Positions 51,589 through 56,758 of a stretch of DNA of 64,000 nucleotides are shown piece by piece. The notes beneath the pieces were generated by a model that did no database searches, was not told the origin of the DNA, and was given only the letters and a program-made list of their open reading frames with translations. The stretch spans positions 1 to 64,000 of the forward strand of contig JAABRU010000008.1 of the NCBI GenBank assembly GCA_011390755.1. The letters run 5' to 3'. The DNA is from Desulfobacteraceae bacterium. GTDB taxonomy: Bacteria; Desulfobacterota; Desulfobacteria; Desulfobacterales; Desulfococcaceae. The position numbers were made by a program, and so were the translations under genes. Each line of letters opens with the position of its first letter. The first letter of the stretch is position 1.

Positions 51589-51617
51589 GTTCTTTTTCCT
51601 GTTTTAACAAATTAAGT

Positions 51618-51697
51618 CAGTAGGGTGGGCAGAAGCGAAGCGCTGCCCACCGCATGTGCAGGCGGTGGGCACGGAAAAGCATGTGCCCACCCTACTG
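51618..51697. repeat. Palindromic repeat agtagggtgggcagaagcgaagcgctgcccaccgcatgtgcaggcggtgggcacggaaaagcatgtgcccaccctac, copy 1
   Basis: Near-exact second copy at 52040-52118; partial at 51832-51870. Confidence 0.85.
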
Positions 51698-51886
51698 AAC
51701 TGGCAAGCCCCGCCGAAGTGCCAAACTGTAAGTTTGGCACTCCAACGAAGCGTTTCCCGCTTTTGAGTCAGTCCGGGACGCGGGAGCGTCCAAAACTGCG
51801 TTCCCACGCTGGAGCGTGGGAACGATCAATGTGCAGGCGGTGGGCACGGAAAAGCATGTGCCCACCCTACATCTGCATAATCGTGT

Positions 51887-52035
51887 TCAGACACCCACCC
51901 GCGCAAGAATAGCCCTGATGACTGCTCCGCTGTTGTAGTCAACTGCCATTTCTATCAGCTTTTCTTCATCCCGTTCACCGTTCAGAATGGCTTCAATGGA
52001 CGCAACAAAATTGGGAACTTGTCCACGCCAGCTTT
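51887..52035 (-). pseudogene. Remnant 3' end of a second CHAT/TPR-type paralogue
   Basis: ILNGERDEEKLIEMAVDYNSGAVIRAILARVGV* vs intact IWAGERDEEKLIEDLDYTDGIIIRAILERLGV*. Confidence 0.8.
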
Positions 52036-52039
52036 CAAG

Positions 52040-52118
52040 TCAGTAGGGTGGGCAGAAGCGAAGCGCTGCCCACCGCATGTGCAGGCGGTGGGCACGGAAA
52101 AGCATGTGCCCACCCTAC
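52040..52118. repeat. Palindromic repeat copy 2
   Basis: See 51618-51697. Confidence 0.85.
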
Positions 52119-52134
52119 ATCTGAATAATCGTGT

Positions 52135-55100
52135 TCAAACACCCAACCGCTCAAGAATGGCCCGGATGATGATTCCGTCTGTGTAATCCAAATCCTCAAT
52201 CAGCTTTTCCTCATCCCGTTCTCCTGCCCATATTTTCCGGATGGGTTCGGCGAGCATAAAACCGGCCTGCTGTAATTGCTCAAACGCTGCTTCCACCTGC
52301 TGCCGTGCTTCCTCATCCCCCCCACATGCCCCCGCCACCATTTCAATGACAGGTTTGAACTGCTCCAGAATCCGCCCCACCTGATGCTGTGTTCCCATGA
52401 AATTTTCCTGCGCCTCCCGCGACAATCGCCGGTATTCACGGGCCTGTTCGCTTTGTTCCTGTTTTTCGGCAATTTCGGCGAGAACGGTGTAGGTTTTCCA
52501 GATTTCTGCTGCGCCGGGGTCAAGGGTTATGTCAATTGCCAATGCCTGCTCGGCCAGTTGCCGCGCTTCGGCCAAACGAGCTACAGATAGCCGGGTGGGG
52601 TCGTTTTGGAGCAGGTCGGCGAGGTTGCTGGCGGCTCTGGATTCTCTTATCCGATCTCCGACCTTTCGGCTGCCTTCCATTGCCCGGCGATACCATGTTT
52701 CGGCTTCGGCCATGCGTCCGGCATTTTGCATCGTAGCTGCCAAATTGGAATAGGTTGCTGCGGCTCCGGCCAGGTTGCCCAGGCTTTCACTCAGGCGGGC
52801 GGATTCCCGGTATGCGCTTTCGGCTGCGTCCCATTGTCTGGCTCTGATATACAACATGCCCAACTGGAGCTGCGCTGTGGCTTCCAGTGCCGGTTCCTTG
52901 AGGCTGCGGAAGGTTTTCAGGGCCTCCTGATAGCGTTTTTCGGCTTCTGCGAGATTGCCTTCCTGCATGGCAAGGGTTCCGATTTGGAATTGCAGAGCAG
53001 CAACAGAACGGTCATCGTTTAATTTTGTCACTATTTCCAATGCCGCCTCATACGCAGCCCGCGCTCCGGCAAAGTCGCCCATATCTGTCAGCGCGGTCGC
53101 CAGATCACTTTGCAGCACACCGGTCTGTCGGCGCACACCATCGCTTTGTTCCAGTTTTTCACCCAGGACGATTCCTTCGCGGTATATGTTTACGGCCTCG
53201 CCCGTGCGACCGGAATCTCTCAGGCAGCGGCCCAGTCTGAGCAGAGTAAGGCTTTGTTCGTGGCTTGGTTCATCCCCCATTGTTTTGAGGATATTCCGGA
53301 ACAGATCCTCGGCTTCGCTGTGGCGACCGGCATTGTACAGTGCCTCTCCTTTGCCGGACTGGGCCAGAAACCAGGCTCTGCTTCCGGGTGCGGCTGCTTT
53401 TTCTGCCCGTTGGTTGAGGTCGTCCCGGTCACGGAGCAGGCCGAAATAGTTGAGGAACAGGTTGACATTATCAACGAAATCCACTGCATTTTCTTCCCCG
53501 GCTGCCAATGCGGCTTTTACGGCAAAGAGCAGGTTGGGGAGTTCGTTCATAGCCACAGAGCGGGAGCCGCCTGTATTTTTGGCAAACGGTTCATAGAGTT
53601 TGCGGGACAGGCGGTAATACGCGGCACGGTGACGCGCGGACAGGCTGTTTTTTTCCGGTTCCGGCAGCCGTTCCCACAGGGCCGGGGCCAAAGCCGGGTG
53701 GAATTTCAGGTACAGAGCGCTTACGCCGGGCAGTCGTTCCGCCCGGATCAGCCCGGAGTTTTCCAAAGCCTGCCGCAGTTGCGGCCATGTGGTGAGTAGC
53801 GTAACCTCCAGCAGCACATCCTCCATCGCTCCCCCATGAAACACCCCCAGCCCCGGCAGCCATTTGCGGGCTTCGGGGGACAGGCGTTCGAGGGAAAGAT
53901 GCAGAGACACGCGCAGGTTTCTGTGCGGTGTATCATCCGGGGCCTCGGCCAGCAGGTTTTCCAGGCGTTCGCCCAGTTCTGCGGTTTTGCGGTTTTTCAA
54001 CTGATACGCCAGCAGGGATACAGACAGGGGATGGAAATCCACTTTTTTGAACAATTCCAGCAGCCCGTGGCGTTTTGGCAGAGTGATATGCGCTGAGGGC
54101 CGGGGCGACAGTTCCCACAGGGCAGCGAAATAAGACAGGGCATCCTGTTCGGACAGTCCGGAAAGGGGCAGGTACTGATGCTCCCGTGTGCCTGCCGGGG
54201 AATATTCGGGATGCTCCAGAAGATTCTGCCTTGTGGTGATAAGCACCCGTGTCTGACCGGCACGGGACCAGCGCGCAGCCGCGTCCAGCAGCGCGGTCTG
54301 GCGGTTTTCCTTTTCATCCCGCAGGCTTTCCAGATTGTCCAGAATCAGCAGCGCGGGCAGGGTTTTCAAAACCTCTTCGGCTTCTGCGGCATTTGCAAGG
54401 CTCTTTTCCAAAGCCGCGGAAAGGGAACTGACCGCAAAGGAAAGCGGATCAACCCCCTGAAACGCGGAAAAATCCACAAAACAGCATCTGCGGAACATGC
54501 CGGAGCGCAGCAGCCACCGCCCGGTTTCGGCAGCCAGTGCGGTTTTGCCCTGTCCCCCGAATCCGGTCACGCTGATGCGCCGGGTTCCGGATACAAAGGC
54601 CCGTTCCGCAAACCACAGTTCCCATGCCCGGCCCTGAAACCCGTGTTCACAGGGTTTCGGAAGCCCCGACCCCCCATCACAGGGGCGAACCTTGTGTTCG
54701 CCCCGGTCTTCCGCCCTCAGCAGGGAAATATCCGCACCGCCCTGGTACAGGGCAGGCAGAAACCAGTCATACAGGCGCAGGGTGAAAACATCCTGCTCTC
54801 CCCTGCGCCGCTGCCCCCGTTCCGGATTTCTGTACAGATGCTGCCGGGCCTCATCCAAAGCCGCTCCCACGCCCGTATGATCGCCCAGCCGCGCATAAAA
54901 CTCACCGAAAAGCCGCCGGGTGGTTTCCACCAGCACGGTATGACTCATGGCAATCACGCAGGGCAGACCGACCTGGGTAAGCCGGGCCGCGACACCGTTG
55001 ATGGCCTTTGTTTTCCCGGTCTCTTCCTCACTGCCTGCCTGCTTCTGCTGCCCCAGGGCCGCGGACTGGCACGCGGACAGCACAGTGAGGGACACTTTCT

Positions 55101-55971
55101 GATTCGTGAGCATTTCCCCCAGGGTTTCCGCGGTAATCAGGGCTTCTTCGCCTTTGTCATCCTCAAACAGCAGGTACCCGGTATCGGGTTTCAGGGCATT
55201 GCCCGCGTTACGGGTGGCCGCGGCCGGATCGCTTTTCACGGCTTTGCGGATCATGGCCCCCTGTGTATCAAACACGCCGTGGCCGTCAAAATGCAGAATA
55301 TCCACAGCCGCCTTGCCCCGGTGTTCCGGCCCCTGGCATCTGAGCCGCCGGGTCAGGTTGTCCAATGTGGCCGGGCGCAGAAATTCCACTGTCACACGGC
55401 CCGGCGCGTTCTCATCCAGGGCATCCATGACCGCGCGGGCATCGGCACGGGGATCAAGAAAACCGGCCCCGGCCGGACGGCTGACCACAAAAAGCAGATG
55501 CAACCGGTCTTTGGGTTCCGGAATGAATTTACGGCCCGTGCCGCCCGCGCCCGTAAGACGGCGGCGCACGGCAATATGGGGATATTCATGCACCAGATGT
55601 TTTCCGTCCTTGCAGAGCAGTTCCCAGGGCAGGGACAGCACGGCAGGAGAGGCCGCATCTATGGTAATGAGTCCGCCCGCGTTATCCAGTCCGTCATAAA
55701 ATTTCCAGAACAGGCGTTTGGCATGGTCATTTCCCAATGCGGCCTGAAACAGGGCCTCTCCCCAGGTTTTGAAATTTTCCACAATGCGCCCGGCTTTTCC
55801 ATCATCCAGGTCAGCCGTCCACTGCGTACCATACACCTCCAGATACCAGCGGATGTCATCCCGGTCTGTTTCCGTTATGGGATTCACAAAATCCAGAGCG
55901 GCGCGTTCCCCGGCAAATTCGGCCATCACCTGTTTTTCATTGGGAAAAGAAATAATCAGTTCGGCAGTCAT
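52135..55971 (-). CDS. CHAT protease - STAND NTPase - TPR protein (1278 aa)
   Basis: HFDGHG and LSACQSA catalytic His/Cys; P-loop GFGGQGKTALAAE; ALLILDNLESL; TPRs (YNAGRHSEAEDLFRNIL, ...). Confidence 0.9.
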   Translation of the reverse strand: MTAELIISFPNEKQVMAEFAGERAALDFVNPITETDRDDIRWYLEVYGTQWTADLDDGKAGRIVENFKTWGEALFQAALGNDHAKRLFWKFYDGLDNAGGLITIDAASPAVLSLPWELLCKDGKHLVHEYPHIAVRRRLTGAGGTGRKFIPEPKDRLHLLFVVSRPAGAGFLDPRADARAVMDALDENAPGRVTVEFLRPATLDNLTRRLRCQGPEHRGKAAVDILHFDGHGVFDTQGAMIRKAVKSDPAAATRNAGNALKPDTGYLLFEDDKGEEALITAETLGEMLTNQKVSLTVLSACQSAALGQQKQAGSEEETGKTKAINGVAARLTQVGLPCVIAMSHTVLVETTRRLFGEFYARLGDHTGVGAALDEARQHLYRNPERGQRRRGEQDVFTLRLYDWFLPALYQGGADISLLRAEDRGEHKVRPCDGGSGLPKPCEHGFQGRAWELWFAERAFVSGTRRISVTGFGGQGKTALAAETGRWLLRSGMFRRCCFVDFSAFQGVDPLSFAVSSLSAALEKSLANAAEAEEVLKTLPALLILDNLESLRDEKENRQTALLDAAARWSRAGQTRVLITTRQNLLEHPEYSPAGTREHQYLPLSGLSEQDALSYFAALWELSPRPSAHITLPKRHGLLELFKKVDFHPLSVSLLAYQLKNRKTAELGERLENLLAEAPDDTPHRNLRVSLHLSLERLSPEARKWLPGLGVFHGGAMEDVLLEVTLLTTWPQLRQALENSGLIRAERLPGVSALYLKFHPALAPALWERLPEPEKNSLSARHRAAYYRLSRKLYEPFAKNTGGSRSVAMNELPNLLFAVKAALAAGEENAVDFVDNVNLFLNYFGLLRDRDDLNQRAEKAAAPGSRAWFLAQSGKGEALYNAGRHSEAEDLFRNILKTMGDEPSHEQSLTLLRLGRCLRDSGRTGEAVNIYREGIVLGEKLEQSDGVRRQTGVLQSDLATALTDMGDFAGARAAYEAALEIVTKLNDDRSVAALQFQIGTLAMQEGNLAEAEKRYQEALKTFRSLKEPALEATAQLQLGMLYIRARQWDAAESAYRESARLSESLGNLAGAAATYSNLAATMQNAGRMAEAETWYRRAMEGSRKVGDRIRESRAASNLADLLQNDPTRLSVARLAEARQLAEQALAIDITLDPGAAEIWKTYTVLAEIAEKQEQSEQAREYRRLSREAQENFMGTQHQVGRILEQFKPVIEMVAGACGGDEEARQQVEAAFEQLQQAGFMLAEPIRKIWAGERDEEKLIEDLDYTDGIIIRAILERLGV

Positions 55972-56008
55972 TTATCACCATCCTTTGCAACCCGTTCCCA
56001 CGCAGAGC

Positions 56009-56276
56009 GTCAATGGCGTTACGTTAAGGGACAAGGTAAACCCCGTAGGGGTGTAAGATAATAGCCCGGCAATTTATTGCCGGGATCGGAATTATTATGA
56101 AAATCAGTCCCGTAGGGACGGCAGAAAAGACGGACGTGATTCTTCCGTCCCTACGGGACTCTGAAATGTTTTCTCTGTGATTCCCGGCAGTAAACTACCG
56201 GGCTATTCTCTTTCTGTCCCTACGGGACAGGGTTGTGTAAATCTGCTTTTTCCTTTTAACGTAATGCCATTGATGT
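56009..56276. mobile_element. MITE family B-like element between the CHAT gene and its upstream partner
   Basis: CAATGGCGTTACGTTAAG ... TTAACGTAATGCCATTG; interior cccgtagggac hairpins. Confidence 0.65.
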
Positions 56277-56302
56277 TCTGCGTGGGAACAAGAGAAGATA
56301 AC

Positions 56303-56758
56303 TCACATTTTCTTACTGTCAGCATCCGCTTTGGCTTCCATGCAGAAGGCTTTCACACCCAGATGGATTACCACCACCCCGCAGGACAGGGCCAGCACCT
56401 GAACCGCGTTCCCGGAAAATCCCATCGCCACCAGAATGGCCGCAAACTGTTTCAGAACCTTTTCATTGGAAAGATCGCCCCATTTCTTCCACTGCTGATT
56501 CAGCACACCGCCCTCTTTGCATACATCATCATGCGCGGCCTTTCGGAATTTCTGCCAGAAAGAATCGGGCGACTGCCCGGCCTCCGTAACCGCCTTTTCA
56601 ATAACCTGGGATTCCTTTTCCGGAACCGGCATAGGCATTGATTCATGGCCCTGGCGAATCCATTTTGTCTGTACAGCATCACCGCCCGCGGCCAGTTCAG
56701 CCAGCCGGGCATCCATTTCACGGGATAAACGGTCAATCTCTTCAGGGGAAAATGTCAT
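56303..56758 (-). CDS. Small protein with C-terminal hydrophobic segment, upstream of the CHAT-STAND gene
   Basis: 151 aa; soluble N-terminal half, then VLKQFAAILVAMGFSGNAVQVLALSCGVVVIHLGVKAFC. Confidence 0.7.
   Translation of the reverse strand: MTFSPEEIDRLSREMDARLAELAAGGDAVQTKWIRQGHESMPMPVPEKESQVIEKAVTEAGQSPDSFWQKFRKAAHDDVCKEGGVLNQQWKKWGDLSNEKVLKQFAAILVAMGFSGNAVQVLALSCGVVVIHLGVKAFCMEAKADADSKKM

Follow-up and report, generated by a model that had tools for sequence, protein, structure and literature searches.

What might two neighbouring reverse-strand genes of a Desulfobacteraceae bacterium do together, when one encodes a large protein with CHAT protease, NACHT/STAND NTPase and TPR parts, and the other a small protein with a hydrophobic end? 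The question arises from a stretch of 64,000 nucleotides (hereafter the window; GenBank assembly GCA_011390755.1, contig JAABRU010000008.1), whose source assembly comprises 379 contigs; G-numbers denote genomes (G000 being the window's own) and L-numbers denote loci. The analysis revealed intact motifs, a conserved pairing of the two genes, their joint decay, diversification of the inner face of the TPRs and a conserved membrane half in the small protein. The pair is proposed, with confidence that stands about evenly balanced, to form an NLR-like two-gene alarm against non-self, in which the small protein would be cleaved to free a membrane-active half. The features of the two genes and their products are as follows.

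52135-55971, reverse strand: CHAT-NACHT-TPR gene, 1278 aa (open reading frame (ORF), Pfam, family alignment).
54763-55644, reverse strand: CHAT protease domain, residues 110-403 (Pfam, motifs, fold search).
55279-55281, reverse strand: CHAT catalytic His231 (HFDGHG), invariant in the family.
55069-55071, reverse strand: CHAT catalytic Cys301 (SACQS), invariant in the family.
54328-54564, reverse strand: NACHT/STAND NTPase core, from the P-loop GFGGQGKT (residues 470-477) to the Walker B motif LLILDNLE (residues 541-548) (Pfam, motifs).
52381-53370, reverse strand: eight TPR repeats, residues about 868-1197, the predicted sensor (Pfam, family variability).
52138-52380, reverse strand: C-terminal tail of the CHAT-NACHT-TPR protein, residues 1198-1278 (alignment).
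56303-56758, reverse strand: small partner gene, 151 aa, upstream of the CHAT gene (ORF, relatives).
Small protein, residues 2-25: conserved N-terminal helix (alignment).
Small protein, residues about 26-62: variable linker (alignment).
Small protein, residues 63-98: conserved W/C motif region, FW..F.KAA..D.C.E.GVL..QWKKWGDL (alignment).
Small protein, residues about 99-140: hydrophobic C-terminal half with invariant His132 and Cys139 (alignment).

The initial annotation, made from the sequence alone, had described a 1278-aa CHAT/STAND/TPR protein and, upstream on the same strand, a 151-aa protein with a hydrophobic C-terminal segment, and both were borne out. Pfam analysis of the large protein revealed the order N-terminal domain, CHAT, NACHT and TPRs, with the CHAT peptidase family PF12770 matched at 86.7 bits (cut-off 24), NACHT matched marginally at 27.1 bits (cut-off 26.7) and many TPRs matched. 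Every full-length relative listed has HFDGHG and SACQS, even the four CHATs with no small gene beside them, and the P-loop GFGG(Q/M)GKT is likewise present in each of these relatives; proteolysis by the CHAT domain is predicted from the intact His/Cys dyad. The Walker A and B motifs of NACHT sit between the CHAT effector and the TPR repeats, which is the layout of an NLR, and the NACHT/STAND receptor would be expected to oligomerise upon binding a ligand. The predicted model of residues 1-440 was of low confidence (predicted local distance difference test, pLDDT, 57), and a PDB fold search returned as its best matches the filament of activated SAVED-CHAT (8tl0, E 2.7e-5) along with separases, which agrees with a CHAT fold.

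Among close Nostoc-group orthologues, the CHAT and NACHT parts were mostly 92-97% identical, compared with 76-80% for the TPR part. Across 12 of these orthologues, mean entropy reached 1.36 bits at TPR positions 2, 5, 9, 12 and 13, which line the concave (inner) face of TPRs, versus 0.35 elsewhere; this set was picked after variable columns had already been seen to recur with the repeat, so the choice was not wholly blind. Rotating the repeats 20000 times never reproduced the inner-face excess. The ratio of nonsynonymous to synonymous substitution rates (dN/dS), obtained for the same orthologues as a pooled Nei-Gojobori pairwise count, was 1.46 in the 40 inner-face codons (five positions in eight repeats), 0.61 in the other TPR codons, 0.13 in CHAT and 0.22 in NACHT. 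Replication outside the choice of positions came from a second, tandem-type Nostoc clade (dN/dS 1.48 at the inner face versus 0.49) and from the comparison of the window with G004, with 35% identity at inner-face positions and 65% in the remaining TPRs. Moreover, a CHAT paralogue without an adjacent small gene showed 97-99% identity in CHAT and 30-52% at the inner-face positions, and the control Ycf3, a housekeeping TPR protein compared across 12 Nostoc-group genomes, had zero replacements at the same positions. As judged from these alignments, diversification is confined largely to the inner face of the TPRs, and this face is probably under diversifying selection. Mutation of the kind caused by diversity-generating retroelements was considered as a source of the variation and found no support: the variable sites extend across all eight repeats, about 1 kb, and do not form one evident set of adenine-rich codons. 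Nor did the ORF tables that were read for these loci show a reverse transcriptase, for which no profile search was made. No bacterial CHAT-NACHT protein whose TPR face diversifies was found described in the open-access literature.

The pairing itself was found in other lineages as well. Members of the small-protein family were found in other Desulfobacterales (G004, 74%; G026/L062, 73%; G123/L068, 56%; G095/L064, 44%), in the cable bacterium Electrothrix gigas, in many heterocystous cyanobacteria and in two more distant cyanobacteria, and where the contig allows, with the exception of G123, the small gene adjoins the same CHAT-NACHT-TPR subfamily in Desulfobacterales, Electrothrix and filamentous cyanobacteria. 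The neighbourhood link between small-protein homologues and CHAT/STAND genes, on which the initial annotation had staked its reading, was found to hold across two phyla and in both gene orientations; at L069 and L082, from two genomes, the small and CHAT genes have decayed together. In the tandem order, with CHAT downstream on the same strand, the gap ranges from -55 to 665 bp (by longest-ORF starts), most tandem relatives overlapping or being separated by up to about 100-200 bp, and in the tail-to-tail order it ranges from 181 to 900 bp. The tandem order occurs in Desulfobacterales, Electrothrix, G400, G553 and some Nostoc, and the convergent order in most Nostoc.

In a survey of 220 Nostocaceae genomes, with a close CHAT defined by E<1e-80 or as a 93% remnant, the small gene was present in 28 genomes and a close CHAT in 27, with 24 carrying both, 3 CHAT only, 4 the small gene only and 189 neither (Fisher p 8e-25, a value inflated because the surveyed genomes are related). 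The two genes are neighbours in 23 of the 24 double carriers (one with a gap of about 2.4 kb) and lie at contig ends in the remaining one. Three of the four genomes with the small gene only carry a partial or truncated copy, and the fourth is represented by a 3-kb contig with an adjoining CHAT tail (L065); the genomes with CHAT only are G606 and, with copies running to or near contig ends, G624 and G729. A second CHAT paralogue, unlinked and without an adjacent small gene, occurs in G196, G598 and G599. Furthermore, the pairwise distance matrices of 23 small/CHAT pairs correlate (r = 0.93), and the paired CHAT subfamily is recovered as a single clade (99/99), which a long branch separates from the next CHATs. 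In the tree of the small protein, HSG9, a member of the Desulfococcaceae, falls with the cyanobacteria (95/92), and it stays apart from the other Desulfobacterales in the CHAT tree, placements which suggest that the module has moved between phyla.

Several genes near the pairs were also observed. In G606, a 236-aa gene without a Pfam family (L127, 10404-11114) lies upstream of the intact CHAT in the usual place of the small gene, and it is possible that it serves as a replacement partner. Genes of toxin-antitoxin type were seen near three loci: a YafQ-like toxin gene with an adjacent small ORF stands between the small and CHAT genes of G400 (L101, 8762-9266), a PIN-domain gene beside the lone small gene of G123 (L068, 11179-11613), and a PIN-like gene upstream of the pair in G610 (L130, 4760-5221).

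The small protein, about 139-156 aa long across its family, matched no family in Pfam, NCBIfam or PADLOC, in keeping with the earlier remark that it was not recognised as a described effector; no convincing PDB relative was found by sequence search, and it was found nowhere described in the open-access literature. Its hydrophobic stretch at residues 121-139 scores 2.08 on the Kyte-Doolittle scale (window of 19), and every relative scored has such a C-terminal segment (1.87-2.64, over the usual transmembrane threshold). Structure prediction, which the initial annotation had recommended, gave an all-helical model of low confidence (pLDDT 55), and in an amphipathic-moment test of its helices none was significant after allowing for six tests. 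In the 12 Nostoc-group orthologues, dN/dS was 0.11 for the N-terminal helix, 0.69 for the linker (residues 26-62), 0.11 for the W/C motif and 0.18 for the hydrophobic part. Conserved ends and a fast linker are the pattern expected of a membrane effector held behind a loosely constrained linker, and they are consistent with a membrane tether as well. The source genome has a single copy of the small gene, so the other CHAT genes there are without this partner. Two sets of candidate relatives were rejected or set aside: the Flavobacterium matches L083 and L084 are methyltransferases having only a GDLSNKKVL stretch in common, and weak matches in G030, G037, G063, G088 and G125 (E 1e-3 to 1e-2, 27-35% identity) come from genomes without the CHAT. 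Identity with gasdermin, EACC1 or EAD received no match in Pfam, NCBIfam, PADLOC or PDB searches.

A fast-evolving recognition face and the spread of the pair among distant, mostly filamentous bacteria make a suicide-type alarm against non-self probable. In the proposed mechanism, the concave face of the TPR superhelix would bind a ligand, presumed to be either a non-self protein, of a phage or another source, or an allelic marker of self, and binding would lead to ATP-dependent oligomerisation via the NACHT/STAND core, which in turn would switch on the N-terminal CHAT protease. The activated CHAT would then cleave the small protein, the fast-evolving linker being the likeliest site, freeing the conserved, helical, tryptophan-rich and membrane-embedded C-terminal half, which may perturb the membrane and cause cell arrest or death. 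The ligand, the oligomerisation, the protease activity and the cleavage site are all predictions, as are toxicity and a role in defence. The earlier idea that the small protein is a substrate or membrane effector agrees with its conserved membrane half, its fast linker and the rarity of intact small genes without CHAT, its cleavage and toxicity being predictions that go beyond what the sequence shows. As for suicide-type defence, it gained indirect support from the diversifying TPR face, which had not been noted before, and neither a phage link nor a defence-island context was found, PADLOC returning no convincing match for the eight window proteins scanned.

Several points weigh against this proposal. 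The synonymous rate is also higher at inner-face codons (dS 0.285 versus 0.148) and across the whole TPR part of the paralogue without an adjacent small gene, so that recombination, by swapping TPR segments, is probably at work besides selection; the dN/dS used is, moreover, an approximate pooled pairwise count rather than a site model. Intact CHATs without an adjacent small gene exist (G606 and the second paralogues of G196, G598 and G599), which implies another CHAT role or a partner in trans there, and in G123, a metagenome-assembled genome (MAG) of the Desulfobacterales, the small gene has no matching CHAT nearby or elsewhere in the assembly. A plasmid search with both proteins found no copies, and the neighbourhood was not recognisable as a defence island. 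The model of the small protein was poor enough to be left out of the fold search, and cleavage, toxicity and defence are predicted rather than observed.

Among the alternatives, the one that survives best, although clearly less probable than the proposal, is that the small protein serves at the membrane as a tether or a sensor, a role suggested for EACC1, and would anchor the CHAT-STAND protein or detect membrane damage and activate the protease, the substrate lying elsewhere or being CHAT itself. The layout is that of the EACC1-caspase pairs, with a 5' gene for a conserved membrane helix and a 3' gene combining a caspase-superfamily domain, STAND and repeats (PMC7159879), and the strong conservation of the hydrophobic tail would suit such a role. 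However, a fast charged linker between two conserved ends resembles a cut site more than a signalling stalk, and every motif is kept in CHATs without the small gene, although a tether is compatible with both observations.

A role in kin recognition or developmental signalling of filamentous bacteria, instead of phage defence, is unlikely, although the distribution leans to filamentous lineages (Nostocaceae and cable bacteria). HetF-type CHAT proteins act in heterocyst formation, and fungal NLRs act in hyphal incompatibility. The repeats of fungal NLRs likewise show a diversifying TPR face (PMC4986451). Nevertheless, the patchy occurrence in Nostocaceae (28/220) is more in keeping with a defence module that moves than with a developmental gene of the core genome, as is the apparent cross-phylum transfer seen with HSG9, and several hosts are MAGs whose habit is not known. 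Slightly less probable still is an inhibitor or antitoxin keeping the protease off until infection removes it: the tight linkage and joint loss of the two genes would fit, but the clade includes intact CHATs that have no small gene beside them, G606 being the clean case because G196, G598 and G599 carry a small gene elsewhere, and a membrane tail would be unusual in an inhibitor of a soluble protease. That the genes are accidental neighbours, co-inherited without joint function, is very improbable, since the linkage spans two phyla and survives inversion of gene order and the small gene degrades where CHAT degrades, even though the surveyed genomes are related and their counts not independent.

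If the proposed cleavage-activated alarm is correct, a further type of membrane executioner, beside the gasdermins, would be controlled by a CHAT protease, and the ligand-binding face of a bacterial NLR would record an arms race or self/non-self typing. It may be suggested, more tentatively than the mechanism itself, that such pairs represent a pyroptosis-like bacterial class: a self-contained NLR-caspase with a diversifying TPR face like that of fungal NLRs and a non-gasdermin membrane executioner that has passed from phylum to phylum, mostly among filamentous bacteria. With 40 hypervariable TPR positions, the recognition targets of a bacterial NLR, and the question of phage defence versus kin recognition, become testable by exchanging sensors among receptors that share about 95% identity in their protease parts.

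The surroundings of the pair in the window include further elements, as follows.

55994-56289: miniature inverted-repeat transposable element (MITE)-like element, 296 bp, with 34-bp inverted ends (91%), between the two genes.
51887-52018, reverse strand: orphan tail from the C-terminal end of another CHAT-NACHT-TPR gene, 43 codons and a stop codon (alignment).
51614-51695: repetitive extragenic palindromic (REP)-like repeat, 82 bp, copy 1 (sequence repeat).
52037-52118: REP-like repeat, full second copy, flanking the orphan tail.
About 51829-51870: REP-like repeat, half copy, flanking the orphan tail.

The 331-bp gap between the small and CHAT genes consists mostly of the MITE-like element, and without its 296 bp the spacing would be about 35 bp, similar to that of relatives; the element also contains a second 21-bp palindrome. 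The remnant of a second paralogue, as the initial annotation called it, showed real CHAT homology that is limited to the C-terminal tail: positions 51890-52000 align to CHAT-protein residues 1243-1278 (62-64% identity, E 5e-6) in a frame open for 43 codons (51890-52018) and then stopped, enclosed by the 82-bp REP-like repeats, and no full-length parent was found elsewhere in the source assembly. Another Desulfobacteraceae MAG also has a spare CHAT tail, placed directly after its CHAT gene on the downstream side (L062, 6710-6838). With such a tail at both loci, duplication and loss of tails or genes may recur here, and the L062 tail could reflect a C-terminal exchange that leaves old tails behind.

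Other CHAT loci were observed in the source genome, which gave sixteen CHAT matches, several in very long open frames of up to 2791 codons. Two apparent type III-E Craspase loci, L149 (C375:1-8276) and L150 (C294:55500-66500), are located on contigs other than that of the pair; Craspases are rare. They comprise a gRAMP/Cas7-11 gene of 1656 aa (1401 bits) and a second one (531 bits) that is clipped by the end of the extracted stretch; each follows a CHAT gene on its downstream side, the CHAT proteins differing, and a 537-aa protein of L150 matches Csx30 (E 4e-12). In addition, L147 (G000:C229) is an operon of an extracytoplasmic function (ECF) sigma factor, a zf-HC2 zinc-finger protein and a membrane-segment-bearing CHAT protein (Pfam), and L145 (C33) and L148 (C1) were judged by reading to have similar layouts; these operons are possibly protease-controlled sigma/anti-sigma switches.

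Among known systems, two-gene fungal clusters offer a parallel, a gasdermin being controlled there by an NLR or repeat protein that carries a CHAT protease (PMC12881547, PMC10197012), and a TPR-bearing CHAT protease of Podospora has been shown to activate a fungal gasdermin (PMC12881547). Like the gasdermin-protease pairs, both the fungal ones with TPR-CHAT or NLR-CHAT and the bacterial ones with a linked protease, the present pair is a two-gene module with a receptor-type CHAT protease, and its neighbour is proposed to resemble theirs in being a membrane-acting protein activated by cleavage. Unlike gasdermins, the small protein is predicted to be all-helical with a hydrophobic C-terminal end, and without any Pfam, PADLOC or PDB match it is not recognisable as one. 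The EACC1-caspase system (System 4 of Kaur et al. 2020), whose layout is the closest yet described in bacteria, couples a 5' small protein having one conserved membrane helix to a 3' caspase-superfamily peptidase with STAND and repeats (PMC7159879), and EACC systems are found mainly in multicellular bacteria (PMC7159879; EACC2: PMC8195603). The tandem lineages have the same arrangement of a 5' small membrane gene and a 3' caspase-superfamily gene, whereas most Nostoc pairs are convergent. EACC1 as described has a single glycine-patched helix with alpha+beta extensions and is mostly actinobacterial, in contrast to the C-terminally hydrophobic, predicted all-helical protein here. No EACC/EAD model appeared among the Pfam matches (E<=1) of 19 small-family members, the library containing a VMAP model of the same paper while the presence of an EACC1 model in it is unchecked. 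As gasdermin and EACC1 membership are unsupported by the tests made, the likeness proposed is one of function and not of family.

The Craspase comprises the type III-E Cas7-11, the TPR-CHAT protease Csx29 and its substrate Csx30 (PMC10028731, PMC11106740), which is cut at non-conserved sites (PMC11106740). The present pair similarly combines a TPR-bearing CHAT protease with a genetically linked partner, the cleavage of which is proposed. It differs from the Craspase in that the large protein brings along a NACHT/STAND part and a TPR sensor of its own, in that CRISPR parts are absent, and in that the partner is unrelated in the searches made; neither Cas7-11 nor Csx30 was found among the ORFs around the pair. 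In fungal NLRs, the TPR, ANK and WD repeats show positive selection at predicted interaction surfaces (Dyrka et al. 2014, PMC4986451), and the large protein likewise joins a STAND core to superstructure repeats with diversifying predicted binding positions. Unlike the fungal NLRs, it is bacterial, its repeats are not near-identical copies, its N-terminal effector is a CHAT domain and its proposed membrane partner is a separate protein in trans. Avs sensors bind conserved phage proteins, whereas the sensor face described here diversifies. Finally, as in bNACHT/Avs proteins, a STAND-class NTPase is flanked by an effector on one side and a repeat sensor on the other (PMC10907252, PMC12169576), with the difference that the effector here is a CHAT protease and that a membrane partner is linked to it.

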